A stretch of DNA of 64,000 bases from Candidatus Thermoflexus tengchongensis (lineage in GTDB: Bacteria > Chloroflexota > Anaerolineae > Thermoflexales > Thermoflexaceae), in NCBI GenBank assembly GCA_016842085.1, contig JAEVEX010000049.1, forward strand, positions 1 through 64,000, written 5' to 3'. Every line of letters starts with the position of its first letter. Positions within the stretch are counted from its first letter, which is position 1. Below the pieces are notes generated by a model, which was not told the DNA's origin, did no database searches, and was given only the letters and a program-made list of their open reading frames with translations. A program made the translations under genes and the position numbers. Below are positions 25,627 to 39,034 of the stretch, one piece after another.

Positions 25627-27657
25627 TCACCCTTTCGATCCTTTCAGATCGGAAGGGCGATCCTGTTCCTCCACGGAAATGCCCATCGCCTCCAGCCAGG
25701 CTTTCAGGGCAGGGGCATGATCGGCCTGGACCATCAGGGTGTGCGCATCCAGCAGGCGGATCCATGGGGCGAGCGCCGGCTCGTTCCCCAGCGCCTCCAG
25801 GATCTCCGGGCGATCCATCCGGAGCAGAAGGACGTGTTCCCAGCGCGCGCGGGGCGGCTGGTCGCTCCAGGCCAGCAGGCGCGCCAGCAGCCAGGCCGGC
25901 AGAGGCCCGCGATGAACGAGCTGCAGCTGTTGCAGGATCTGGGGGAGGGTCAGGCCGGCCGCCCGCCCGGCTCGCAGGGAAGCCTCTGTGATCCGGAACC
26001 CCTCTGGAACGCGCTCAGTGAACGGCTCCAGCAGCCGCTCCACCCCGGGGTGCGGGAACGGGCCGGTCCAGCGGAGGATCCCCGGGGGCTCGGCGATCAC
26101 CTGATGGCGCAGGTCCTCCGGTCGGAACCCGGTCACCCAGGGGCGAATTCCCTGAAGGCGCCACTGGGCTTCCAGATGGGCCAGGGGCTCTCCCGTCCAC
26201 CCGATGGAATCCCTGAGCGGGCGGATGCTATGGCCCATGGGGAGCGATTCTCCCATGGTCCGGATCACGGTCACCCGCCGGTAGATCCGGATCTGGTGAA
26301 ACCGCCGGTGCCAGTCTTCCAGGGACCGTCGGACGTTTGCAGGTAGGGGCTCGCCGCTGATCCCTTCGAGAAAGCGGATGATCCGCGGGACGTCCCACCC
26401 CTGCTGGAGCCCTCGATAGATCGTGTCGCGGGAGATCTGATATACGGATACCGGATCCCCCGGGCTGGGGTCCGCAAAGGCCTCCAGCGCGGTCAGGATG
26501 GATTCGGGCACCGGCTCGAAGACTAGGATGCGGAAATCGGGCTGGACGATCAGGCGTCCGCCTTCCTCGGGCAGCGAAACGGGCTCTCCCACACCCAGCA
26601 CCCATGCGCCGAAGGGCGTAAGGCGCACCGCTTCCCAGCGGCCGTCCGTATCGCCCCGATCCAGAAGGCCCAGCCAGTGCATGGGCCACAGGGTCTCCGC
26701 CTCCAGCCAGGCCCTGAGCTGGGCAGCCAGCTCCCGACCCGCCGGGGAAAGAGGCTCCGGCAGACGCTCCGGTCGCTCCGGGAAGATCGCTGCGAGTAGT
26801 CCGGGAAGGGGGATCCAGGATCCGGGCTCCCGGCGCAGAGCCTGTTCCACCCGAGCTCGAAGCGCGCCCGGGGAAAGCAGCCCGTTGTTCAGGCGGTCCT
26901 CGGGCTCCTCGCCTTTCCACGCGCGAAAGGCCGCCATGGCTCGATCGATGGCGCCCTGCTCCCAGAACGGATGCCGCAGATCCAGCATCAGGGAAGCCCC
27001 ATGCGTGCGGAGCACCCCCATCCGTTCCAGCAATTGCTGAAGGAAGGCCAGATAAGCGGACTCCTGAGGGGAGCCCTCCCGCCCCAGCCAGCGCTGCAGG
27101 CGCCGCATCCAGCGGACGGGCAGGCGTCCCTCGCGGGTCAGGGTGATCTCCGGGAACCGCCGGAGGAAGCGGGCGAACCGTCCCAGATCCCGTGCCAGCC
27201 GCAGGGGGGAAGCCGGGATCACGATGGAAGGCGCTGACGGCTCAGGTGGGGGAAGGGCTTCGGCCACCTCAACCGGCAGAACGGCCTCTCCCTGGGGAAG
27301 CAGGGAACGGATGGGGCGACCGGCGGCGTGCCAGTAGATCAGGCCGGAGGCGGCGAGACGGACCGCGAGGGTTTCGAAGGTCATCCCCGACGTGCCACGG
27401 GGCATCATCTCGTATAAAATCAAAAGGATCATAGCCGGCATGGTGCCTCCAGCCCGGCGCAGCCCTTCGATCAGGGCGCGGCCCTCCGGCGGGAGCTGGG
27501 CCCAGAGCGCCGCAAGGCGATCGGGATCGCTGAGCCGGCGCAGCAGGTCTTCACGGGCCCCCGGCATCCCCTCTACAGGCCAGCCCTGTTGATGGAGGAT
27601 CTCCATCAGTAACGTGGGCTCATAATGACAGATAACTTCCCATAATCGCATGCGCAT
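25627..27657 (-). CDS. Helicase-associated (XPB/Ssl2-like) domain protein without helicase motor
   Basis: This is a 676-residue protein. The region RLIVQPDFRILVFEPVPESILTAL, followed by VYQISRDTIYRGLQQG, IIRFLEGISGEPLPANV and SLEDWHRRF, matches the XPB/Ssl2-like helicase-associated domain seen in many actinobacterial and Chloroflexota proteins. No Walker A or DEAD-type motif is present. The N-terminal half (LPPEGRALIEGLRRAGG) has winged-helix-like parts. The ATG of MRMRLWEV at 27655-27657 was accepted; a second ATG lies two codons later. It is divergent from the kinase gene 110 bases away. A role in DNA repair or transcription is only inferred. Confidence 0.75.
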   Translation of the reverse strand: MRMRLWEVICHYEPTLLMEILHQQGWPVEGMPGAREDLLRRLSDPDRLAALWAQLPPEGRALIEGLRRAGGTMPAMILLILYEMMPRGTSGMTFETLAVRLAASGLIYWHAAGRPIRSLLPQGEAVLPVEVAEALPPPEPSAPSIVIPASPLRLARDLGRFARFLRRFPEITLTREGRLPVRWMRRLQRWLGREGSPQESAYLAFLQQLLERMGVLRTHGASLMLDLRHPFWEQGAIDRAMAAFRAWKGEEPEDRLNNGLLSPGALRARVEQALRREPGSWIPLPGLLAAIFPERPERLPEPLSPAGRELAAQLRAWLEAETLWPMHWLGLLDRGDTDGRWEAVRLTPFGAWVLGVGEPVSLPEEGGRLIVQPDFRILVFEPVPESILTALEAFADPSPGDPVSVYQISRDTIYRGLQQGWDVPRIIRFLEGISGEPLPANVRRSLEDWHRRFHQIRIYRRVTVIRTMGESLPMGHSIRPLRDSIGWTGEPLAHLEAQWRLQGIRPWVTGFRPEDLRHQVIAEPPGILRWTGPFPHPGVERLLEPFTERVPEGFRITEASLRAGRAAGLTLPQILQQLQLVHRGPLPAWLLARLLAWSDQPPRARWEHVLLLRMDRPEILEALGNEPALAPWIRLLDAHTLMVQADHAPALKAWLEAMGISVEEQDRPSDLKGSKG

Positions 27658-27766
27658 GGCCGGAGCCCCTTCCTCTCACCCAGGGCCCACCGGAGGGCCC
27701 GGGGGGTCGATGACCAAAGTATGGTCAGAAAATCTTAACCCCATCGGTATGATAGAGGGGAACACG

Positions 27767-29674
27767 ATGGAATCCGGGACGACGGGCCCCGAGAAGAGGC
27801 GAACCGGGATGGAAACCCAGCGGCTGGATCCCATACAGACACCCTCCCTTCTGAGAGCGGGTGAGGTCCTGCAGGGGCGGTACCGCATTGAGCGGGTGCT
27901 TGGTGCGGGAGGGATGAGCACGGTCTATCTCGCCCTGGACCTCCGCTTCTCCCAGGTGCGGCGTCTCTGTGCCATCAAAGAGATGATCAGCCACATCCCG
28001 GACCCCCGGATGCGGGCGCTGGCTCAGCAGAGCTTCGAACGGGAAGCGGCCCTCCTGGCCACCCTCAGCCATCCCGCCATCCCCAAGATCTACGATTACT
28101 TTGTCGAAGGCGAGCGCAGCTACCTCGTCATGGAGTATATCCCAGGACAGGACCTGGAGACGCTCCTGCGGCGCACGGAAGGGATGCTGCCGGTGGAGGA
28201 GGTGGTGAACTGGGCGCTCCAGATCTGTGACGTCCTCCACTATCTTCACTCCCAGCAGCCGCCCATCATCTTCCGGGATCTCAAGCCGTCCAACATTATG
28301 GTGGACCCCTACGGGCGGGTGTTCCTGGTGGATTTCGGGATCGCCAAGGTGTTCCAGGCCGGGCAGCGGGGGACAATGATCGGGACGGAGGGCTACAGCC
28401 CGCCGGAGCAATACCGGGGCGTGGCCGACCCCCGCACGGACATCTACGCCCTGGGGGCCACGTTACATCACCTGCTGACGCGCCAGGATCCGCGCCTGGA
28501 GCCGCCGTTCTCCTTCCACGAGCGCCCGATTCGCCGGATCAACCCGGCGGTCCCCGAAGCCCTTGCCCAGGTGGTCATGCGCGCCCTGGAATACGATCCG
28601 GAGCGCCGGTTTCAGTCGGCCCTGGAGATGAAACAGGCGCTGCTGGCTGCAATGGGGATGCGGACGCCCACGCGTCCAGCGCCCCATCGGGAGGTTTCAT
28701 CGGGGAGCGCGCCGTATCGGGTGAAGTGGACCTTTGCCTGTGAGGATGAGGTCCGTTCCCGTCCCGTGGTCGCAGATGGGATCGTCTTCGTGACCTCTTA
28801 CGACCATAACGTCTACGCCCTCTCCGCGGAGGATGGGAAGCTCCTCTGGAAGTTCGCGACGGAGGGCGGTATCGGCGGCGCCGTGGCGGTCGCTTCGGAT
28901 CGGGTGGTGGTGGGCTCGCTGGATCACCGGCTCTACGCCCTGCGGGTGGAGGACGGCGAGCTCCTGTGGACGCTGGAGCTGGATGGGCCGATCTACACGA
29001 CGCCGCGGATCACGGCCGGCCTGGCCTTCCTGGGCGCCGATGATGGGGTTTTCTACGCAGTGGACCTGGATAGCGGCCGGGTGGTCTGGAAGGTGAGTTT
29101 GAGCGCCCCGATCCGGTCCTCGGCCGGCCTGTATGGGGAGACGCTGGTGGTCGGCAGCGAGGACGGCGGTGTCTATGCCCTGGATCTTCAGGGTCGCCTT
29201 CGCTGGCAGTTCGTGGCCCGTCGGGGGGTGACCGCCTCGCCCTGGGTGGATGGGGAGCTGGTCGTGGTGGGATCGTGGGACTGGCACGTGTATGCGCTGG
29301 ATGCCCGGACCGGCTGGGCCATCTGGCGGTTCCGGACCGGGAAGCCGGTGCTTTCCTCCCCAGTGGTCTCGGAGGGCGTGATCTATGTGGGATCGGCGGA
29401 TGGCTTTCTCTATGCGTTGAACGCGCGGACCGGGAATCCGGTCTGGCGGTTCCAGGCCGGCGGGCAGGTGAACGCCCCACCCCTGGTGCTGGAGGGCCGG
29501 GTTCTGGTGGGGGCGACGGATGGCCGCCTGTATGCGGTGGATGCGCGGAATGGCAATGCCCTCTGGTCCTTCCAGGCCGGCGGTCCGATCGTCTCCGCCC
29601 CGGAATGGTGGGAGGGAGTTCTCTACGTCACCTCGATGGACTATCGGGTCTACGCGTTAAGCCTGGGAGCGTAA
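27767..29674 (+). CDS. Serine/threonine kinase with C-terminal PQQ-type beta-propeller
   Basis: In this 635-residue protein, kinase residues 38-295 show a glycine loop LGAGGMSTVYLA, K71 in CAIKEM, FRDLKPSN (R170, D171, K173, N176; Phe in place of the usual His), DFG at 189-191 and GTEGYSPPEQY in the activation segment. After a short linker, with no membrane helix, follow eight PQQ-like repeats of the form VYALD-x-GxxxWxF. The first W strand (YRVKWTF) and the last VYALSLGA would close the ring, giving an eight-bladed propeller. ATG 27767 was chosen for the ribosome site AGAGGGG. It heads the PP2C, DnaJ-VWA and FHA gene run. Confidence 0.88.
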   Translation: MESGTTGPEKRRTGMETQRLDPIQTPSLLRAGEVLQGRYRIERVLGAGGMSTVYLALDLRFSQVRRLCAIKEMISHIPDPRMRALAQQSFEREAALLATLSHPAIPKIYDYFVEGERSYLVMEYIPGQDLETLLRRTEGMLPVEEVVNWALQICDVLHYLHSQQPPIIFRDLKPSNIMVDPYGRVFLVDFGIAKVFQAGQRGTMIGTEGYSPPEQYRGVADPRTDIYALGATLHHLLTRQDPRLEPPFSFHERPIRRINPAVPEALAQVVMRALEYDPERRFQSALEMKQALLAAMGMRTPTRPAPHREVSSGSAPYRVKWTFACEDEVRSRPVVADGIVFVTSYDHNVYALSAEDGKLLWKFATEGGIGGAVAVASDRVVVGSLDHRLYALRVEDGELLWTLELDGPIYTTPRITAGLAFLGADDGVFYAVDLDSGRVVWKVSLSAPIRSSAGLYGETLVVGSEDGGVYALDLQGRLRWQFVARRGVTASPWVDGELVVVGSWDWHVYALDARTGWAIWRFRTGKPVLSSPVVSEGVIYVGSADGFLYALNARTGNPVWRFQAGGQVNAPPLVLEGRVLVGATDGRLYAVDARNGNALWSFQAGGPIVSAPEWWEGVLYVTSMDYRVYALSLGA

Positions 29675-29772
29675 TCCTGGGGACGTCGGAGCGATCCATT
29701 CCTCCCTCCTGTGCGGCGAGCCGCACGGGGAGGGGGGATCGATGGGAATCTGGCGAGGAGCGTCACAAACGC

Positions 29773-30699
29773 ATGAAATGGCTCAAGCGCCTTTTCCAGC
29801 GACCGGAAACCCGGGAGGGCGTCTCACCGGTGCCCCCGGACGTCCAGAGGGATGTTCCCGGTTCCGGGCCGGAGGCTCCGCCTTCGCCTGTAGAGGAGCC
29901 GAGGGGAGGAACCGTGCCGCTCCCCCCCATGCCGGCCCAGCCGGCAGCGGGGCTTCGGTTCGGCTGGGCCACCGATCCGGGCCTGGTTCGGCCCAGCAAT
30001 GAGGATGCGGTTCTGATCATGCATATCGCTTACCAGGGCTCCCGGGAACTGTTGCCTCTGGGTCTGTTTCTGGTCGCGGACGGAATGGGAGGGCATCGAG
30101 GGGGTGAACAGGCCAGCGATCTGGCCGTTCGGGAAATCGCCCGTTACCTGACCACCCGTCTCCTCGTCCCTCATCTGGCCCATCGGGGTCCGGACCATCC
30201 GATTAAAGAGTTGCTGGAGGAAGCGCTGCAGGTGGCCAACGCCCAGATCCTCCAGGCGGTGCCGGGAGGCGGGACAACCGTGGTGGGAGCGCTGGTGATC
30301 GGAGAGAGCGTGCATCTGATCCATGTGGGAGACAGCCGCGCGTATCTGGTATGGCCGGATCGGCTGGAACAGCTCACGGAGGACCATTCCCTGGTTCAGC
30401 GAATGATCGCGCTGCAGGGGCTGAGCCAGGAGGAGGCCGCAGGGGTTCCGCGAAATGTCCTCTATCAGGCCCTGGGGCACCCCAGCCGGTTGAATCCAGG
30501 CTATCGGCGTGTTTCCCTTCCCCCGGATGCGTGGTTGATGCTTTGCACGGATGGATTGTGGGGAGAGGTGCCGGAGGACCGGATCCTGCAGATCATCTGG
30601 GAAAGCGCTTCGCCGCATGAGGCATGTCACCGGCTGGTTCAGGAAGCCAAAGATGCGGGCGGTCACGATAATATCTCGGTGATCCTGATCGGGCGATGA
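29773..30699 (+). CDS. PP2C-type serine/threonine phosphatase
   Basis: The 308-residue protein has a basic start ([10 protein letters not shown]) and a proline-rich linker of about 50 residues. The PP2C domain follows with metal-binding motifs [53 protein letters not shown] and GGHDNISVI. All the key aspartates are present, so it should be active. It would reverse phosphorylation by the kinase encoded 98 bases upstream. The ATG at 29773 is in a GC-ATG-AA context with GAGGAG 10 bases before. Its TGA overlaps the next ATG. Confidence 0.92.
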
Positions 30700-32186
30700 G
30701 CGCGCGCGAAGAATTCCTGGACTACTACGCGATCCTGGGTGTCCCTCCCTCAGCGGACGCGGAGGAGATCAAAAGAGCATACCGGGTGCTGGTGCGGAAG
30801 GTCCACCCGGATGTGAGGCCGGAGGCCGGGACCTCCCTGCTGTTCCGCCTGGTCCACGAGGCGTATTCGGTGCTCTCGGATCCGGAGCGGCGGGCGGAAT
30901 ATGACCGGCGCTGGCAGGCCCGGTGGGGGAGCCGGGGATCGTTCCTCCGGTTCCGCCTCCTCCTCAGTCGCTCTTCCCTGCCGGTCCTCTCCACCTCGCA
31001 AATCCTTTACGCGTTGCTCACCATCGAGCCCGCCCGCCCTCATCCGATCACCCGCCAGCCGCTTCATCTCTGTCTGGTGATCGATCGCAGCAATTCGATG
31101 AGAGGGGAGCGGCTGGAGCAGGTGAAGGCCGCCGCGCTGGAGCTGGCCGGCCAGCTGGGACCCGACGATCGCCTGGCGGTGGTGGCCTTTCACAATCGGG
31201 CGGAGGTGATCTGGCCGCTGAGCCCGGTGGGGGAGCGCCACCGCCTTTCGATGCGGCTGGAGACGCTGACGGCGGAGGGAGGCACGGAGATCTACCAGGG
31301 GCTGCTCCTGGGGTTCCAGGAGCTCCTCCGCGCCCACCAGGTGAGTGTTCATTCCCATCTTATCCTCCTCACCGATGGTCGGACATATGGAGATGAGGAA
31401 CGATGCCGGGCGCTGGCGGATCAGTCGCGGGAGGTTGGGATCCGGATCAGCGCCTTTGGGATCGGGGAGGACTGGAACGACGCCCTGCTGGATGAGATCG
31501 CCGCCCGCAGCGGCGGGATCTCGGGCTACATCGCCTCGCCGGAGGAGATCCGCCGGCGCTTTCTGGAGCATCTCCTCTGGTTGCAGGATCGCTATGCGGA
31601 AGATGTGCGGCTGATGGTGGAGCCCACAGAGGGTGTGCTGATGACCGCGCTTTACCAGGTCGCGCCGGAGCTTCGAATCCCACCGCGGGAGGATTCCGGC
31701 TGGTATCTGGGCACTCTGCACGCCTCCCGACCGGTCCAGGCGTTGATCGAGTTCGCCCTCCCGCCGCTGGAGCCGGGTCTTCTGGAGGTGGCCCGATTGA
31801 GGGCTCGGGTCCGTATCCCAGGGAACCCGCCGCAACTTGATGAGGCCGAGCTGTCCGTTCAGGCCCATGCCCTTCCGGAGGAGCCGCCGATCACCTCACC
31901 ACCCGAACCGGTGCTGGAGGCGCTGTCTCGCGTGGTGATCTATCGGATGCAGGAACAGGCGTGGGCGGACATCCAGGCCGGGAGACGGGCGGAGGGGGCC
32001 CACAAGCTTCGACAGGTTGGAACCCGTCTGCTGGAGCTGGGGGCGAAGGACCTGGCGCAGGAAGCGCTGGCGGCCGCCACCCGTGTGCTGCAGGGTCATT
32101 CGGTTTCCAGAAGCCAGCAGCTGGCGTTAAAATACAGGACGCGGATGCTGATGCTTCCGCCGCCCGAGCCGGGAGGGAAGTCATGA
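30696..32186 (+). CDS. DnaJ-domain and von Willebrand A domain fusion protein
   Basis: In this 496-residue protein, residues 8-72 are a J domain with HPD at 37-39 (VHPDVRP), followed by a basic linker. Residues 122-300 form a VWA domain whose MIDAS reads D130-x-S132-x-S134 ([11 protein letters not shown]), with later GGTEIYQG and [13 protein letters not shown] beta-rich region and a helical tail ([15 protein letters not shown]) complete it, as in TerY/YfbK-like VWA proteins. No signal peptide or membrane helix is seen. ATGA overlaps tie it to the PP2C gene before and the FHA gene after. A joined J and VWA domain is unusual. The J domain may recruit DnaK to a VWA-held client. Confidence 0.85.
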
Positions 32187-32680
32187 TCGAGTGTCCGTTG
32201 TGCGGTCGGAAATATCCCGTCGGCGCGCTGTTCTGCCCGGAGTGCGGGGTCTACCTGCTCACGGGTGGGCCGTTGCGCACCGAGCCGCTCCCGGAGGGCG
32301 TATCCATTCCGGTGGAATTGCCCGCCGGATCCCCTTCGGCCGCGCGAGCCGGCCCGCAGAGCCTGGTGCTTCAGGTGCTGACCTCCGGCCGCCGCGTGGT
32401 GATCCGGCCGGATCAGGAGGTCCTGGTGGGGCGGCTGGATGTGGGCCGGGGGATCTTCCCCCAGGTGGATCTGACGCCCGATGGCGGGCTGGAGGGTGGG
32501 GTTTCCCGGCGTCATGCCCGCATCTTTTTCCAGAACGATCAGTTCTACATCGAGGATCTGGGCAGCACGAACGGGACGTATTTAAACGGTGTCCGGCTGG
32601 ATCCGTATTCTCCACGCCCGCTGGGAGATGGGGATGAGCTTCGCCTGGGGCAAATCGCCATCCGGGTGGGATTTCTGTAG
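32183..32680 (+). CDS. Zinc-ribbon and FHA domain protein
   Basis: The 165-residue protein starts [20 protein letters not shown], a zinc ribbon with two CxxC pairs, then a linker. The FHA domain at about residues 60-165 has [18 protein letters not shown] and [11 protein letters not shown], the phosphothreonine-binding loops. It should read phosphorylation made by the kinase at 27767. The ATG overlaps the stop of the DnaJ-VWA gene and follows GGGAGGG. It is the last gene of the overlapping run. Confidence 0.9.
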
Positions 32681-32819
32681 CGCGCGGCCTTCAATCTCCG
32701 AACGACGGGAAAGGGACCATCCCCAGTTCGCGGTTTTCTATGCTGGCCAGAGCTCATCACCGGTATCCTGAATTCGTAACTGGATGAGGCTGTCGCATGG
32801 CCCGGAGGGGGGAAGTTCG

Positions 32820-33065
32820 ATGGGGTATACCGTCCTCATTCATCTGGTAAACACCGATCCGATCCTGGCCGAGGTCGAGCGGCTGCCGGAGCCTCAGGAC
32901 CAGGTCCTGATCTGTACCAATGTCCGCCTCCGGGATGGTAAAGAGGTGCATTACATCGACCCGGAGGCGGTGCAGGTGATCATCCCCTGGCATCGGATTT
33001 CCTTCGTGGAAGTCCTGAGCTCGCGCGAAGAGGCCGAGATCATCAGTTTCGTGCGGGAGCGTTGA
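32820..33065 (+). CDS. Small conserved-looking protein of unknown function
   Basis: The 81-residue protein is soluble and beta-rich ([55 protein letters not shown]). No cysteine cluster or membrane helix is present. The fold looks like a small barrel, but no family is recognised. The ATG at 32820 follows CGGAGGGGGGAAG; the frame is open 12 codons further upstream. It ends one base before the ATG of the OmpR-class regulator and must be co-translated with it, suggesting a functional link. Confidence 0.7.
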
Positions 33066-33066
33066 A

Positions 33067-33840
33067 ATGGCCCATACTCCGATCCGATCGGAGACGTCGG
33101 AGCGCCGGCGGATCCTGATCGTGGATGATGAGGCGCGGGTGCGACAGTTCATCCGCCTGAACCTGGAACTGGAGGGCTTTGAGGTTTTCGAGGCTTCCAA
33201 TGGACTGGAGGCCCTGGAGAAGGTCAAAGAGCTGCTCCCGGACCTGGTGATCCTGGATGTGATGATGCCGGAGCTGGACGGATTCGAGACCCTGGCTATG
33301 ATCCGGGAGGTAAGCACGGTCCCGGTGATCATGCTTACGGTGCGGGCGGATGAGGCGGATAAGGTGCGGGGGCTCGAGCTGGGGGCGGATGATTATGTGA
33401 CCAAACCCTTCTCTCCCCGCGAGCTGGCGAGCCGGATCCGGGCGGTCCTGCGGCGGGTGGATACCCCGGCCACGGCCGGCGGGGCGATCCAGATCGACGA
33501 TTACCTGACCATCGATTTCAACCGGCGGGTGGTCATCGCCGGAGGGAAGGAGATTAAGCTGCGGCCGACCGAGTGGCGGCTGCTGTATCATCTGGTGAAC
33601 AACGCGGGCCGGACGATGACCCACGAGAACCTGCTGGCCAAGGTGTGGGGCTACGAATACCGGGATGAAACCCACTACCTTCGGCTGTATATCAACTATC
33701 TCCGCCAGAAGATCGAGCCGGACCCCTCGCAGCCGCGCTATATCCTGACCGAGCGGGGGGTGGGGTATCGGTTCGTGGATTTCCGGGGCGGAGAGCTGGA
33801 ACGCCTCAAGCAACGGGCGGCGGAGCGTTCCGGGGCTTGA
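33067..33840 (+). CDS. OmpR-class response regulator (RpaB/MtrA-like)
   Basis: The 257-residue protein has a receiver domain at residues 14-130 with acidic pair D20/D21, phospho-acceptor D64 in [12 protein letters not shown], Thr in [10 protein letters not shown] and Lys in DDYVTKPFS. The winged-helix DNA-binding domain at 150-245 has [28 protein letters not shown] and [13 protein letters not shown]. It has the Chloroflexota/cyanobacterial RpaB-like layout. No histidine kinase follows; a tRNA cluster comes next. Target genes cannot be read from the sequence. Confidence 0.92.
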
Positions 33841-33890
33841 CGGAGTTCACCCTCACGCGATTTTCCGGGATGAGGATGAGGAAATGGATG

Positions 33891-33899
33891 TGTTATAAT
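33891..33899 (+). promoter_or_regulatory. Extended -10 promoter of the tRNA cluster
   Basis: TGTTATAAT (TGnTATAAT) is a perfect extended -10, eight bases before the first tRNA base at 33907. No good -35 is seen 17 bases upstream, which is usual for extended -10 promoters. Confidence 0.65.
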
Positions 33900-33906
33900 T
33901 AAATTG

Positions 33907-33981
33907 CGGGGCGTGGCGCAGCCAGGTTAGCGCACCACGTTTGGGACGTGGGGGTCGTCGGTTCGAATCCGACCGCCCCGA
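33907..33981 (+). tRNA. tRNA-Pro (TGG)
   Basis: Acceptor arms CGGGGCG and CGCCCCG pair fully. The D arm (GCGC...GCGC) and T arm (GTCGG-TTCGAAT-CCGAC) are regular. The anticodon stem CCACG/CGTGG holds loop TTTGGGA with anticodon TGG at 33942-33944. CCA is not encoded. Confidence 0.95.
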
Positions 33982-33987
33982 CTGAGT

Positions 33988-34060
33988 GCGGGCGTAGCTC
34001 AGAGGGTAGAGCGTCTGCCTTCCAAGCAGAAGGTCGCGGGTTCGAGTCCCGTCGCCCGCT
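33988..34060 (+). tRNA. tRNA-Gly (TCC)
   Basis: Acceptor arms GCGGGCG and CGCCCGC pair. The anticodon stem TCTGC/GCAGA encloses CTTCCAA with TCC at 34021-34023. The T arm GCGGG-TTCGAGT-CCCGT is regular. It lies six bases after tRNA-Pro, so the two are probably one transcript. Confidence 0.95.
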
Positions 34061-34129
34061 CCTTTCCCCGGATCGGTGATGGGGCAGGGAGCGCTGCTGT
34101 GTGCCCCATGGTTCCCCAATCCACGCGAA

Positions 34130-34201
34130 GGGCCCGTAGCTCAACGGCAGAGCAGCCGGCTCATAACCGGTCGGTTGCAGGTTCGAATCCTGCCGGGCCC
34201 A
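34130..34201 (+). tRNA. tRNA with CAT anticodon (Met, or Ile if lysidine-modified)
   Basis: Acceptor arms GGGCCCG and CGGGCCC pair fully. The anticodon loop CTCATAA carries CAT at 34162-34164. The T arm TGCAG-GTTCGAAT-CCTGC is regular. The initiator feature of an unpaired first base is absent. Elongator Met and tRNA-Ile2 cannot be separated by eye. Confidence 0.93.
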
Positions 34202-34314
34202 CTGGGGGAGGAGAGGCACCGGCTCCGACGCCAGGGGGATAGGCGGTTTCCCCGCTGGATGGGCTCCCCGGGCTTCTTTCCCCACGGGTATCCTTTCGCT
34301 GCTGGGAGGGAGCG

Positions 34315-36033
34315 ATGGTGAACGATCGCCCGTGGTATCGGTTCTATGATCCAGGAGTTCCCCGTTCCCTGGAGTATCCCCCGATCCCCTTCTTCCGATT
34401 CCTCGAGGACTCCGCCCGTCGTTTCCCGGACCGCATCGCGCTGATCTTCAAGCCGGCCCATCAGGGGTTCGCGGGAAGCGCCATAACCTATCGGGAGCTC
34501 AACGAGCTCTCCGACCGCCTGGCGGCTGCGCTCTACCACGAGCTGGGCGTGCGGAAGGGCGATCGGGTGGCCCTGATTATGCCTAACATCCCCCAATTTG
34601 TTATCTCCTATTTCGCGATCCAGAAGATCGGCGGCATTGTGGTGGCCACGAACCCGATCTACACCCCCCGCGAGCTGGAATATCAGCTGGCCGACTCCGG
34701 CGCCACCGTGGCCATCGTCCTCAGCCGGATCTACGAACGGGTGAAATCCGTTCAGCCCAACACCTCGGTGCGCCGCATCGTTGCCGCCCACATTAAGGAA
34801 TACATGAGCCCACTATTGAAGCTCCTCTATACCCTGGCCCGGGAGCGAAAGGAAGGGGATCGGGTGACGTTGCGGGACGACGACGTGTGGTTCCAGGACC
34901 TGTTGTGGCGCTACCGGCCGGATCAGCGGCCGGCGGTGGAGGTCGGGCCGGATGACGTGGCGATCTTCCAGTATACCGGTGGGACCACCGGGCTCTCCAA
35001 GGGGGCGGTCGCCCTCCATCGCAACATCGTGGCGAATGTCCTTCAGGTCCGGGCGTGGGATCCCCAGATCCGGGACGGCCAGGAAGTGGTCATGGGGGCT
35101 CTGCCCCTGTTCCACGCCTACGGCATGATCGTGGCCCTGGGCCTGGCCATGCAAACCGCGGCCACCCTGGTGCTGGTGCCGAACCCACGGGATCTGCACA
35201 CTTTGCTGGATGGGCTGCAGCGCTATCGCGTGACCATGTTCCCGGGCGTGCCCACCCTTTACAACGCCATCAACAACCACCCGGATGTGAAGGCCGGAAA
35301 ATACAATCTGCGCACTATCCGGGCATGCATCTCCGGCGCCGCGCCGCTGCTCCTGGAGATCAAACGCCGTTTTGAGGAGATCACCGGGGCGAAGCTGGTG
35401 GAGGGCTATGGCCTCTCGGAGGCGCCCACGGCCACCCATTGCAACCCGCTCTACGGACAGAACAAAGAGGGCAGCATTGGGATCCCGCTGCCGGATGTGG
35501 ATGCAAAGATCGTGAGCCTGGAGGATGGGGTCACCGAGCTGCCGCCGGGGGAGATCGGGGAGCTGGTCCTCCGGGGCCCGCAGGTGTTCCAGGGCTACTG
35601 GAACCGGCCGACGGAGACGGAGAACACGCTTCGGAACGGCTGGCTCTACACGGGGGACATCGCCCGTATGGATGAGGATGGTTATTTCTACATTGTGGAT
35701 CGGAAGAAGGAGGTGATCAAGCCGGGCGGCTATCAGGTGTGGCCGCGGGAGGTGGAGGAGGTCCTGGCCCAGCATCCCAAGATCAAAGAGGTAGCCGTCG
35801 CCGGGATCCCGGATCCCCATCAGGGGGAGGCCGTCAAAGCGTGGGTGGTGCTCCACGAGGGGCAGACCGCCACCGTCGAGGAGATCCGGGAATGGTGCCG
35901 GGACAAGCTGGCGCCTTACAAGATCCCGCGTTACATCGAGTTCCGGAGCGAGCTCCCCAAGAGCATGGTCGGCAAGGTCCTGCGCCGGGTGCTGGTGGAG
36001 GAGGAACGAGCCCGGGGCAGGCCGGCCGAGTAA
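34315..36033 (+). CDS. Long-chain fatty acid--CoA ligase (AMP-forming)
   Basis: The 572-residue ANL-superfamily enzyme activates a fatty acid to acyl-AMP and then acyl-CoA. The P-loop YTGGTTGLSKGA, GYGLSEAPTATH, GWLYTGDIARMDEDGYFYIVDRKK and GGYQVWPREVEEVL (with IDPKEVE-type hinge) are present, and the catalytic Lys region near the end is PKSMVGKVLRRVL. The layout matches FadD-type ligases. The ATG at 34315 follows GGGAGGGAGCG. It stands alone between the tRNA cluster and a foreign gene. The chain-length preference cannot be told. Confidence 0.92.
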   Translation: MVNDRPWYRFYDPGVPRSLEYPPIPFFRFLEDSARRFPDRIALIFKPAHQGFAGSAITYRELNELSDRLAAALYHELGVRKGDRVALIMPNIPQFVISYFAIQKIGGIVVATNPIYTPRELEYQLADSGATVAIVLSRIYERVKSVQPNTSVRRIVAAHIKEYMSPLLKLLYTLARERKEGDRVTLRDDDVWFQDLLWRYRPDQRPAVEVGPDDVAIFQYTGGTTGLSKGAVALHRNIVANVLQVRAWDPQIRDGQEVVMGALPLFHAYGMIVALGLAMQTAATLVLVPNPRDLHTLLDGLQRYRVTMFPGVPTLYNAINNHPDVKAGKYNLRTIRACISGAAPLLLEIKRRFEEITGAKLVEGYGLSEAPTATHCNPLYGQNKEGSIGIPLPDVDAKIVSLEDGVTELPPGEIGELVLRGPQVFQGYWNRPTETENTLRNGWLYTGDIARMDEDGYFYIVDRKKEVIKPGGYQVWPREVEEVLAQHPKIKEVAVAGIPDPHQGEAVKAWVVLHEGQTATVEEIREWCRDKLAPYKIPRYIEFRSELPKSMVGKVLRRVLVEEERARGRPAE

Positions 36034-36075
36034 GGGTGAGCCACGCTCGGGAATTCAACGATCCAGGGGTTCCAT

Positions 36076-36118
36076 CCGGTGCGGGTGGACATTCCTTCGG
36101 CGCGCCCACCCGCACCGG
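36076..36118. repeat. Large hairpin, third member of the GGTGGGCGC family, at a GC-content boundary
   Basis: CCGGTGCGGGTGG (36076-36088) pairs perfectly over 13 bp with CCACCCGCACCGG (36106-36118). Its minus strand contains the GGTGGGCGCGCCGAAGG core shared with the terminator at 16274 and the hairpin at 17225. It begins 42 bases after the acyl-CoA ligase stop and could end that transcript, but no T-run follows. DNA becomes abruptly AT-rich directly after it. Confidence 0.7.
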
Positions 36119-36275
36119 AATACTAAATCATAATGGGGAGCAAAAAATATAAAAGGCTTTGAGGACTAAGCATTCGCTCTTTTAGGTAGTGACAACATTT
36201 AAATGTCAAGAATTCTCCCAAGTTCTAAACATAGTTGGCTAGGCCGATTGCCATAGCCGGCGTGGTTGTGGTGAC

Positions 36276-37832
36276 ATGAATTTGCAAATCAGGTTTACGA
36301 AAAGAATTAATATAGACAAGATAGTACTTGGATTCATACTCCTCGTAGCTTTCCTCGTCAGAATTTGGGGGGTGAATTATGATTTGCCATATATATATCA
36401 TCCGGATGAGCCTGGCTATATAACTATTATCCAGAACATATTTAAGACCGGCGATTTGAACCCTCATTTCTTTAATTATCCGTCTTTGTTTTTCTACATC
36501 AATGCTCTTGCTTATGTGCCTTATTATCTCATTGGGAAACTTGTTGGTGTATTTAGTACACCAAGTGATATACCATCTCCTATTTCGCTGGCAATGGGAG
36601 TCACGTGGACTCGAATGCCAACCACTGTCTTGCTCGGACGTATTATAACGATTTTATTTGGAACTGGAACTGTATGGTTGGTTTACCTTATTGGTAAACA
36701 GATTACAAATAAGACCTCGGTGGGGCTGTTAGCCTCATTGATTTTGGCTATTTCACCTACTAACGTTTGGCATAGTCGTCTAATAACGCCAGACACATTT
36801 GTAACATTTTTTGCTGTTGCCTCATTTTTAGCATCAATTTTGATATACCAGCATGGTAAAACTTGGCAGTATATCATAGCAGGGATATGCGTGGGCCTGA
36901 CTGCTTCAAGTAAATATAATGGAGCATTAATTGTATTGACTCTAATTTTAGGACATTTATTTCGTTACGGAAAGACAGCAATCAAGCATTTTCAAATTTA
37001 TTTTGGATTGTTATTCTGCATAGTCGGTTTTCTTATAACTACGCCTTATGCTTTGTTAGATTGGAATAAATTTATCAAAGATTTAAAATTTGAGGCATAT
37101 CATTACTCCACTGGACACCCCGGTATGGAGGGGAATGCTTTAAAATGGTATTTGGAATATATGTTCCAAACCGGTGGAATTATCTATAGTTTTTCGTTAT
37201 TAGAAATCTTGCGTGGTTTTTATTTCCGTTATAAAGAGACAATTCTTTTATCTGTTTTTCCTATTGCTTATTTTGCTTTTATTTCTAGTTTTATGGTGAG
37301 AAATGACCGGACATTTCTTCCAATAACTCCGTTTTTGTTTCTGTTATCTGCTTTATTCATAGTAGAATCGATGCATTTTATTGCTGGATTGCGATCAAAA
37401 ATACTGAACAAGGTTTCCATGATTATACTCGTTTCTTTTTCGGTAATTGGTATTATTTCGTTGTTTTCCAAAACTGTCATGGATAATATTCGTCTGATGA
37501 GCATTGATAGTCGTGAAACAGCAAGAGTTTGGATAAATAGTAACTTGCCGACGGGTGCTAAGATTGCCATAGAATCGTATTCTCCATTTATAGATCCAGA
37601 TCGGTTTTTGGTGAAAGGTTTTGTAAGAATGATAGATCACGAACCGGAATGGTATATTGAACAAGGTTTTGAGTATTTAGTTTTTAGTCAGGGCATGTAT
37701 GGAAGATTCTATAGAGAACCGGAGCGATATCGAAACGAAATAGCGCTTTATAATAATATGTTTAGCAGATTCAATCTTATAAAATTATTCAATGATGGTG
37801 GCTACGAGGTACGTATATACAAGATTAAGTAG
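36276..37832 (+). CDS. GT39-like membrane glycosyltransferase, AT-rich, probably acquired
   Basis: The 518-residue protein has about 11 hydrophobic segments. The first loop YDLPYIYHPDEPGYITII carries the Asp-Glu pair typical of GT39/PMT-type enzymes. A polar C-terminal domain follows from about residue 410 (RETARVWINSNLPTGAKIAI). Base and codon use are unlike everything around: the row 36781-36840 has 19 G/C in 60, against 39 in 60 for 35581-35640. Lys, Ile and Asn codons ending in A or T abound. The AT-rich zone runs from about 36119 to 37850. The gene stands alone, without an integrase or IS. ATG 36276 (preceded by GTGGTGAC) lacks a good ribosome site. Confidence 0.85.
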   Translation: MNLQIRFTKRINIDKIVLGFILLVAFLVRIWGVNYDLPYIYHPDEPGYITIIQNIFKTGDLNPHFFNYPSLFFYINALAYVPYYLIGKLVGVFSTPSDIPSPISLAMGVTWTRMPTTVLLGRIITILFGTGTVWLVYLIGKQITNKTSVGLLASLILAISPTNVWHSRLITPDTFVTFFAVASFLASILIYQHGKTWQYIIAGICVGLTASSKYNGALIVLTLILGHLFRYGKTAIKHFQIYFGLLFCIVGFLITTPYALLDWNKFIKDLKFEAYHYSTGHPGMEGNALKWYLEYMFQTGGIIYSFSLLEILRGFYFRYKETILLSVFPIAYFAFISSFMVRNDRTFLPITPFLFLLSALFIVESMHFIAGLRSKILNKVSMIILVSFSVIGIISLFSKTVMDNIRLMSIDSRETARVWINSNLPTGAKIAIESYSPFIDPDRFLVKGFVRMIDHEPEWYIEQGFEYLVFSQGMYGRFYREPERYRNEIALYNNMFSRFNLIKLFNDGGYEVRIYKIK

Positions 37833-37918
37833 CTTGCGGGCAAGTTTTCTGAGCTGATATGCCCGCTTCCCTTGCTCTATGCTTGGCTGAAGCCCCTTTC
37901 GTAGGGCGATAAAAGGTC

Positions 37919-39034
37919 CTACCGAGAGCCCCCCAGGGCGTTCAGGATCCCTTGAATGGTCTCGGGGGCCAGGGGTGGGTGTTGGATCAGGGCGAGGTTA
38001 TGTTCCACGTGGGCGGCCCGGCTCATGCCGACCAGGGCGGTGGTGATCCCCGGGGTGGAGCGAACAAACTGGAGGGCGCGCTGGGCTTCGGAGAGGCCCT
38101 CGGGGAAGAGGCGTCGCAGCCACAGCGGCCAGCTCCGGAGCAGGCGCCCATGCATCAGAGAGGCGCTCGCCCACACGGTGATCCCCAGATCCTCCGCTAC
38201 CTCCAGCACGGTTCCCCACGCTTCTCCCCGAAGCTGGTTCCTCCGGAGGGCCGCCTCGGGCATCGCCAGGTTGTAAGGCAACTGCACAAACCGGAACCGA
38301 TGATCCGGCCCGCCGATCTCCCGGGCGATGGCCTCGACTTCCATCAGGGAGAGGGCGTCCGACGCCTGAGGAGAAGCACGATAGGCGGTCCATGTGGCAG
38401 TGCCGTAGAAGCGGATGCGCCCCATGGCGGCCGCTTCCTCCAGCACAGCGAAGGCCGCCCGCAGGCGCCTCCGAAACTCTTCCCTGGAGACGGCCGCGAG
38501 TTGTTCCTCCGGGTTATGGACGAAATACACATCGATGGTCTCCAGGCCCAGATTGCGCTGGCTCTGTTCCAGCTGATGGCGGAGATATCCCGGGGCGATG
38601 CAGTGGCCGTTGACGAAGTCCTCCGGCCGTGCGATCCCGGTCCGCAGGAAGGTCTCCTCGATGTAGCGCCGGGGATCCGCGGGCCAGTCTCCCTCATAGG
38701 GGACATACCCCCCTTTGGTGGCGATGACCAGCTCCTCCCGGCGGAAGCCCCGGGCCAGCAGGCGACGGAGGGCCTCGCCGACGCAGCGCTCGCTGCGCTG
38801 GAAACGGTAGTTGATCGCTGTGTCGATGACGTTGCACCCGGAGGTCACGGCGCAGACAATGGCCTCCACATACCGGGCGTCGGTCTCCGGGTCGGGGTGG
38901 CCCAGATAGGTGCCGATGCCGATGGAGGACAGCCATAGCCCCTGGGCCAGGCGGAAGTGATCAGGGACGGCCCGACCCTGAAAGCGGGCCACATAAGTCC
39001 GCGTCCCCTCCGGCGTTGCCCACCCGGGGATCAT
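37919..39034 (-). CDS. Aldo/keto reductase family oxidoreductase
   Basis: This is a 371-residue NAD(P)H-dependent TIM-barrel protein. Catalytic tetrad positions are visible in order: Asp and Tyr of NVIDTAINYRFQRSE, Lys of VIATKGGYV and His of IDVYFVHNPEE. The late GITTALVGMSRAAHVEHNL is the cofactor-binding stretch. It is longer than the usual 320 residues because of an insertion after the Lys motif (PYEGDWPADPRRYIEET). The ATG at 39032-39034 follows AGGAGATCTTCG. The substrate is unknown. Confidence 0.88.
   Translation of the reverse strand: MIPGWATPEGTRTYVARFQGRAVPDHFRLAQGLWLSSIGIGTYLGHPDPETDARYVEAIVCAVTSGCNVIDTAINYRFQRSERCVGEALRRLLARGFRREELVIATKGGYVPYEGDWPADPRRYIEETFLRTGIARPEDFVNGHCIAPGYLRHQLEQSQRNLGLETIDVYFVHNPEEQLAAVSREEFRRRLRAAFAVLEEAAAMGRIRFYGTATWTAYRASPQASDALSLMEVEAIAREIGGPDHRFRFVQLPYNLAMPEAALRRNQLRGEAWGTVLEVAEDLGITVWASASLMHGRLLRSWPLWLRRLFPEGLSEAQRALQFVRSTPGITTALVGMSRAAHVEHNLALIQHPPLAPETIQGILNALGGSR

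Follow-up and report, generated by a model that had tools for sequence, protein, structure and literature searches.

Does the row of phospho-signalling genes at positions 27767-32680 in Candidatus Thermoflexus tengchongensis (Chloroflexota, Anaerolineae) form a genuine unit, how far does it reach, and which known switch does it resemble? The window, by which we mean the whole stretch of DNA analysed, is 64,000 nucleotides long (contig JAEVEX010000049.1 of assembly GCA_016842085.1) and belongs to a draft genome of 3.89 Mb in 100 contigs. A preliminary description had seen here an operon of four genes, the writer, eraser, effector and reader of phosphothreonine. The four genes are real and intact, their order is conserved over many Chloroflexota families, and the conserved unit extends to about position 33840, taking in two downstream genes that had been overlooked: an 81-amino-acid protein, here called SM81, and a response regulator. 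As to function we lean, with some reserve, towards a dedicated phosphothreonine assembly switch that would work like the archaeal ArnA/ArnB pair.

All six genes lie on the + strand. The first (27767-29674) joins a Hanks-type Ser/Thr kinase domain (Pfam Pkinase, 5.9e-40) to a C-terminal PQQ/BamB-like beta-propeller, also matched in Pfam, and carries Thr-Gln-Arg-Leu in its N-tail; among its relatives FRD replaces HRD in 56/59 rows, with the catalytic Asp kept, and DFG is present in 57/59. The phosphatase (29773-30699; PP2C, 2.2e-11) has a long N-tail with Thr-Val-Pro-Leu, and DGMGG stands in 56/56 rows of relatives. J-VWA (30696-32186; DnaJ 2.8e-21, VWA 6.9e-20) is a J domain fused to an ArnB-like VWA/beta-sandwich/helix-bundle protein with a C-terminal Thr-Arg-Met-Leu; the DxSxS of its metal-ion-dependent adhesion site is found in 62/62 rows, and its closest named relative, at 93%, comes from Candidatus Thermoflexus japonica HRbin22. 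The ArnA-like reader (32183-32680; FHA 2.2e-20) consists of a zinc ribbon, for which the Pfam matches are sub-threshold, a linker (Arg-Thr-Glu-Pro-Leu-Pro) and the FHA domain; its GR and SxxH residues and its four zinc-ribbon cysteines are each at least 90% conserved. The four-gene phosphothreonine operon first described is borne out, with its writer, eraser and reader domains intact. Between kinase and PP2C genes lies a gap of 98 bases; the later two junctions are 4-base ATGA overlaps and not gaps. SM81 (32820-33065) starts 139 bases past the FHA stop, and the OmpR-type response regulator (33067-33840) starts 1 base past the SM81 stop. A scan of 27500-34300 gave two promoter-like sites and one terminator-like site, about the chance level.

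Loci for comparison were picked by their J-VWA protein: named genomes supplied 19 and further Anaerolineae genomes 40; L054 (Brevibacterium) was left out because its VWA match is only partial. Twenty further loci with a VWA gene without J were fetched, of which five (L095-L099) have the same operon and were kept, and 15 (L100-L114) were excluded from the counts. The resulting main set consists of 64 rows, including L051 (J-less, among the 19) and the window, and of 62 once identical rows are removed. The FHA gene adjoins the VWA gene in 62/62 of these loci (61/62 with the first gene model), the propeller kinase is present in 61 (the single miss being a contig end), and SM81 adjoins the operon in 61, the missing case again being a contig end, 792 bases downstream. 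PP2C is found in 56 and the response regulator in 50. The Anaerolineae order, propeller kinase > PP2C > VWA > FHA > SM81, is retained at 35-40% protein identity while the neighbours turn over: among flanking families the response regulator occurs at 48/60 loci and the next commonest at only 10/60. Kept gene order and turnover of flanking genes together rule out chance adjacency; and since the four genes are conserved in order elsewhere, the possibility, raised at the outset, that they are adjacent only in this genome falls away. The response regulator lies directly downstream at most Anaerolineae loci and would be the likely transcriptional output of the system. In 14/62 rows, among them L043-L047, L051, L059, L067, L070 and L071, a small GTPase gene (Arf/Ras-like, with a "TPGQ" motif) follows the response regulator on the same strand within 6 kb. 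At the 15 excluded Anaerolineae loci (L100-L114) an ArnB-like VWA gene stands together with a zinc-ribbon/FHA gene; other kinases are usually present, and no propeller kinase lies beside the VWA gene. They form FHA/PP2C/VWA clusters in which the VWA C-termini mostly carry T-R-K-L.

The relationship to ArnA/ArnB appears in both sequence and fold. When 54 VWA proteins are combined into a profile, its match to ArnB (8s05), which spans positions 117-466 at 8.4e-23, is the strongest of the non-J matches shown. The AlphaFold2 model of J-VWA (predicted local distance difference test, pLDDT, 91.4) contains J, VWA, beta-sandwich and four helices, and has the three-domain form of ArnB (vWA, beta-sandwich and C-terminal helix bundle); Foldseek places this model next to 4fx5 (6.1e-27), ArnAB 8s05 (1.2e-25) and the ArnB paralog 5a8j (2.8e-21). 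The best of these matches, 4fx5, is an actinobacterial VWA protein of Catenulispora acidiphila that shares the three-domain VWA architecture, to judge from passages of PMC6509490, with the difference that its profile match to J-VWA begins past the J domain. The FHA protein is laid out like ArnA, with a C4 zinc ribbon at the N-terminus, then a linker, and FHA at the C-terminus, and against solved structures it finds ArnA (5a8i) at 8.3e-10, second of 17 matches. ArnA and ArnB belong to the network that regulates the archaellum, and thereby motility, in Sulfolobus. According to PMC12852372 and PMC6509490, the ArnA zinc finger keeps hold of ArnB; once the kinase ArnC has phosphorylated threonines of the ArnB helix bundle, the FHA domain binds tightly, and PP2A reverses the state. 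The resemblance extends to the neighbouring zinc-ribbon/FHA and VWA/beta-sandwich/helix-bundle genes, the accompanying Ser/Thr kinase and phosphatase, and the conserved Thr at the VWA C-terminus. Unlike the ArnA/ArnB system, the operon is bacterial, holds kinase and PP2C together, has a propeller kinase and SM81, carries a J domain fused to the ArnB-like protein, and gives no match to ArnB_C in Pfam.

The same comparison bears on the resemblance to the TerY phosphorylation triad proposed in the preliminary description. That triad consists of kinase, PP2C and VWA genes together, and a TerY-like arrangement, in which these three would regulate a membrane or stress complex, agrees with the neighbouring genes seen here. 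It fits poorly with the ArnB-like three-domain form of the VWA protein, with the absence of PP2C from 6/62 loci, and with the host genome, in which we found no match to TerD (PF02342), the control search being positive in 2/14 genomes. Since ArnB and ArnA number among the solved structures nearest to the VWA and FHA proteins, we consider a TerY-type triad very improbable.

A motif T-x-x-[LI] (Thr-x-x-Leu/Ile) was first noted in the window and the Anaerolineae set and then tested on other loci. In the Anaerolineae set it occurs in 51/62 FHA linkers (shuffled expectation 21.0) and, on a first pass over the N-tails, in 36/54 of the kinases (shuffled 17.9) and 36/55 of the PP2C proteins (shuffled 20.5); S-x-x-[LI] and T-x-x-D show no enrichment. 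A second pass took kinase tails of up to 90 residues and excluded PP2C tails of fewer than 8. Where FHA is present, the motif is then found in 42/54 kinase tails from Anaerolineae (shuffled 21.0) and 14/19 from other loci (shuffled 8.7), 56/73 together, as against 4/13 where FHA is absent (shuffled 3.3, near chance), a contrast with a Fisher value of 0.002 among related sequences. PP2C tails at the other loci have it in 15/17 cases with FHA and 0/4 without. The motif at the VWA C-terminus is nearly invariant, with T-R-x-L in 61/62 loci of the main set and in 19/19 further loci.

A motif in the linker also suggests another way of working, one in which the FHA domain would chiefly recognise the phosphorylated Thr of its own linker, the FHA protein, whether open or closed, would inhibit metabolic enzymes, and VWA would be a secondary partner. 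In the GarA/OdhI switches the Thr motif lies N-terminal to the FHA domain, as does the conserved linker Thr of our protein, T-x-x-[LI] being present in 51/62 linkers, and GarA and OdhI are both listed among its solved FHA relatives. ArnA outscores GarA in that list, however, and the match to the OdhI NCBIfam model reaches 37 bits, far under its cut-off of 200. Unlike GarA and OdhI, moreover, the FHA protein here has a zinc ribbon and a dedicated VWA partner, encoded next to it and bearing a near-invariant motif. We regard a GarA/OdhI-like switch as unlikely.

For the ArnA/ArnB-like assembly switch the published ArnAB mechanism is the basis on which we say that the operon would work in the same manner, and from it we infer the phosphorylation and binding steps and the direction of control. 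Thr-x-x-Leu/Ile sites in four places would be phosphorylated by the propeller kinase, whose activity a propeller ligand or SM81 may gate: the VWA C-terminus, the linker of the FHA protein, the PP2C tail and the N-tail of the kinase itself. The VWA protein, at first held loosely by the zinc ribbon of the FHA protein, would be clamped into a tight complex once the FHA domain binds these phosphorylated sites, and PP2C could release it.

In Anaerolineae the additional J domain would serve to recruit DnaK, which would remodel the complex or a client. HPD is present in the J domain of the window and in 49/55 others, and the host genome encodes one full-length DnaK and three J proteins including J-VWA; because of this full-length DnaK, its recruitment by the J domain is plausible, if dispensable in some relatives. 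When 87 VWA cores are placed on a tree (quick method, with SH-aLRT as the only support), the J label takes six changes, with L161 unplaced, and J-less rows are nested within the J clade, which fits a single gain with several losses; to judge from these sequences, the J domain was probably gained once and lost repeatedly. The chaperone link proposed earlier holds in so far as the J domain could engage the single DnaK; with J lost several times and PP2C absent from 6/62 loci, neither the chaperone link nor the eraser is obligatory. A possible second chaperone link in some families is an Hsp20 gene, which lies downstream on the same strand within 6 kb in 11 rows; an Hsp20-like gene directly follows the response regulator in L050, L053, L064, L066 and L077.

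SM81 would be the constant partner of the kinase. Pfam gives it no match above threshold and NCBIfam none at all; among 52 members none matches the LSM sequence family at E 1 and eight give a weak MJ1316 match, and a sequence search against solved structures found nothing (best E 0.67). The AlphaFold model built from 52 sequences (pLDDT 88.3) predicts a five-strand Sm/SH3-like barrel with a C-terminal tail that is low-confidence yet conserved, and all 50 rows listed by Foldseek for this model are Sm, LSm or Hfq structures or complexes containing them. The scores are modest (best Foldseek E 4.7e-3, TM about 0.6, VIA Z 7-8), and the fold is probably Sm-like, a model match that does not prove homology or RNA binding. 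SM81 was found in 127/298 Anaerolineae and 131/400 Chloroflexota genomes, as a single copy in each listed genome. In the same 298 Anaerolineae genomes the kinase, counted at E up to 1e-80, is also found in 127, and 121 are common to both (Fisher 1.8e-67, not corrected for kinship of the genomes). The mismatches number 12, of which 11 are at contig ends or fragments and one, G074 (L131), is a real exception. An F-x-R in the SM81 tail was considered as a kinase-specific tag and dropped as too uninformative, as it occurs in 31/36 kinase-linked cases against 14/20 others, several of the latter being contig ends. The SM81-like proteins at L165-L167 are only distantly related (E about 1e-11 to 1e-16) and have long C-terminal tails; at L165 the gene lies between dprA-like and topA-like genes.

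A further 58 SM81-related loci, 18 taken to explain the exceptions and 40 from other lineages, vary in gene content. The full order from propeller kinase to SM81 is present in 18, with J in L161 only; the smallest versions, kinase > SM81 alone, make up 10; three have kinase > PP2C > SM81, and one lacks VWA only. L126 and L138 are without SM81; apart from these, L165-L167 and the loci without a kinase listed below, the remaining loci are incomplete or lie at contig ends. Such minimal loci, together with the shared 121 genomes and the single copy in every listed genome possessing SM81, speak for kinase and SM81 as the real functional unit, in which for example an Sm-like protein would sense RNA or a peptide and gate the kinase, while VWA, FHA, PP2C and J would be exchangeable outputs. 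This has against it the predicted nature of the Sm-like fold and its modest scores (VIA Z about 7), as well as the seven loci, described next, where SM81 stands beside FHA without a kinase; we think it improbable, somewhat more so than a GarA/OdhI-like switch.

Several observations weigh against the ArnA/ArnB-like switch with SM81 as its constant partner. At seven interior loci (L160, L162, L164, L168, L187-L189) FHA > SM81 occurs with no kinase found, and RecN lies directly upstream at three of them (L160, L162, L168); SM81 may for this reason be tied to the FHA protein or to DNA repair. At L131, L171 and L172 SM81 is present, and no kinase was found in its vicinity. PP2C, the J domain and the response regulator are dispensable, as in some lineages are VWA and FHA. 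The motif was counted in sequences related to one another, which leaves the tests non-independent; among the kinase tails from loci without FHA several are short, and start codons were guessed; and T482 of the VWA protein, where a predicted helix ends, may owe its conservation to structure. ArnB_C was unmatched at E 0.01 in a Pfam scan for which the presence of that family in the library was unchecked, and for lack of this match we do not claim full ArnA/ArnB membership. Finally, Sulfolobus ArnC differs in architecture (PMC12852372).

We nevertheless take the operon to be real and widespread, a bacterial version of the ArnA/ArnB-like phospho-switch to which a new constant partner has been added. 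A bolder version, which we offer tentatively and rather doubt, is that SM81 founds a new bacterial Sm-like family and that, in much of Chloroflexota, a propeller-type Hanks kinase has it as its obligate regulatory partner; kinase and SM81 would be the ancestral core, on which an ArnA/ArnB-like clamp, PP2C and, in Anaerolineae, a DnaK-recruiting J domain were mounted, with one Thr-x-x-Leu/Ile code on every FHA-read subunit. If the switch is as proposed, the one archaeal FHA/vWA phospho-switch that has been well studied would reach into a deep bacterial phylum, where a single operon encodes writer, eraser and reader and a possible Hsp70 input is added, and an unannotated family kept at one copy per genome would gain a context. 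The Thr-x-x-Leu/Ile prediction renders the wiring directly testable.

The operon context of AfsK is different from that found here. In its domains the kinase recalls the AfsK-type kinases of Streptomyces, which join a Hanks kinase to a PQQ-type propeller (PMC1262709, on PQQ kinases), but it scores 224.5 bits against an AfsK equivalog cut-off of 1300. The actinobacterial kinase/PP2C/vWA association described in PMC7159879 is a different one. No description of the operon was found in the literature searched, and PMC12852372 contains no word starting with "Chloroflex". In PADLOC the kinase domain matched PD-T4-6, mad6 and other entries, PP2C gave a single match, and J-VWA and the FHA protein gave none; we take these matches for generic similarity among kinases and phosphatases, and a defence role is not claimed.

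Downstream of the operon, genes for tRNA-Pro, tRNA-Gly and tRNA-Met follow at 33907-34202 on the same strand, and at 1744-1825 of the window ARAGORN calls a tRNA-like gene whose two-base anticodon it leaves undetermined. The stretch at 36001-38000, with a GC content of 0.397 against about 0.65 around it, covers a membrane-type open reading frame of 518 amino acids (36276-37832) and looks recently acquired.

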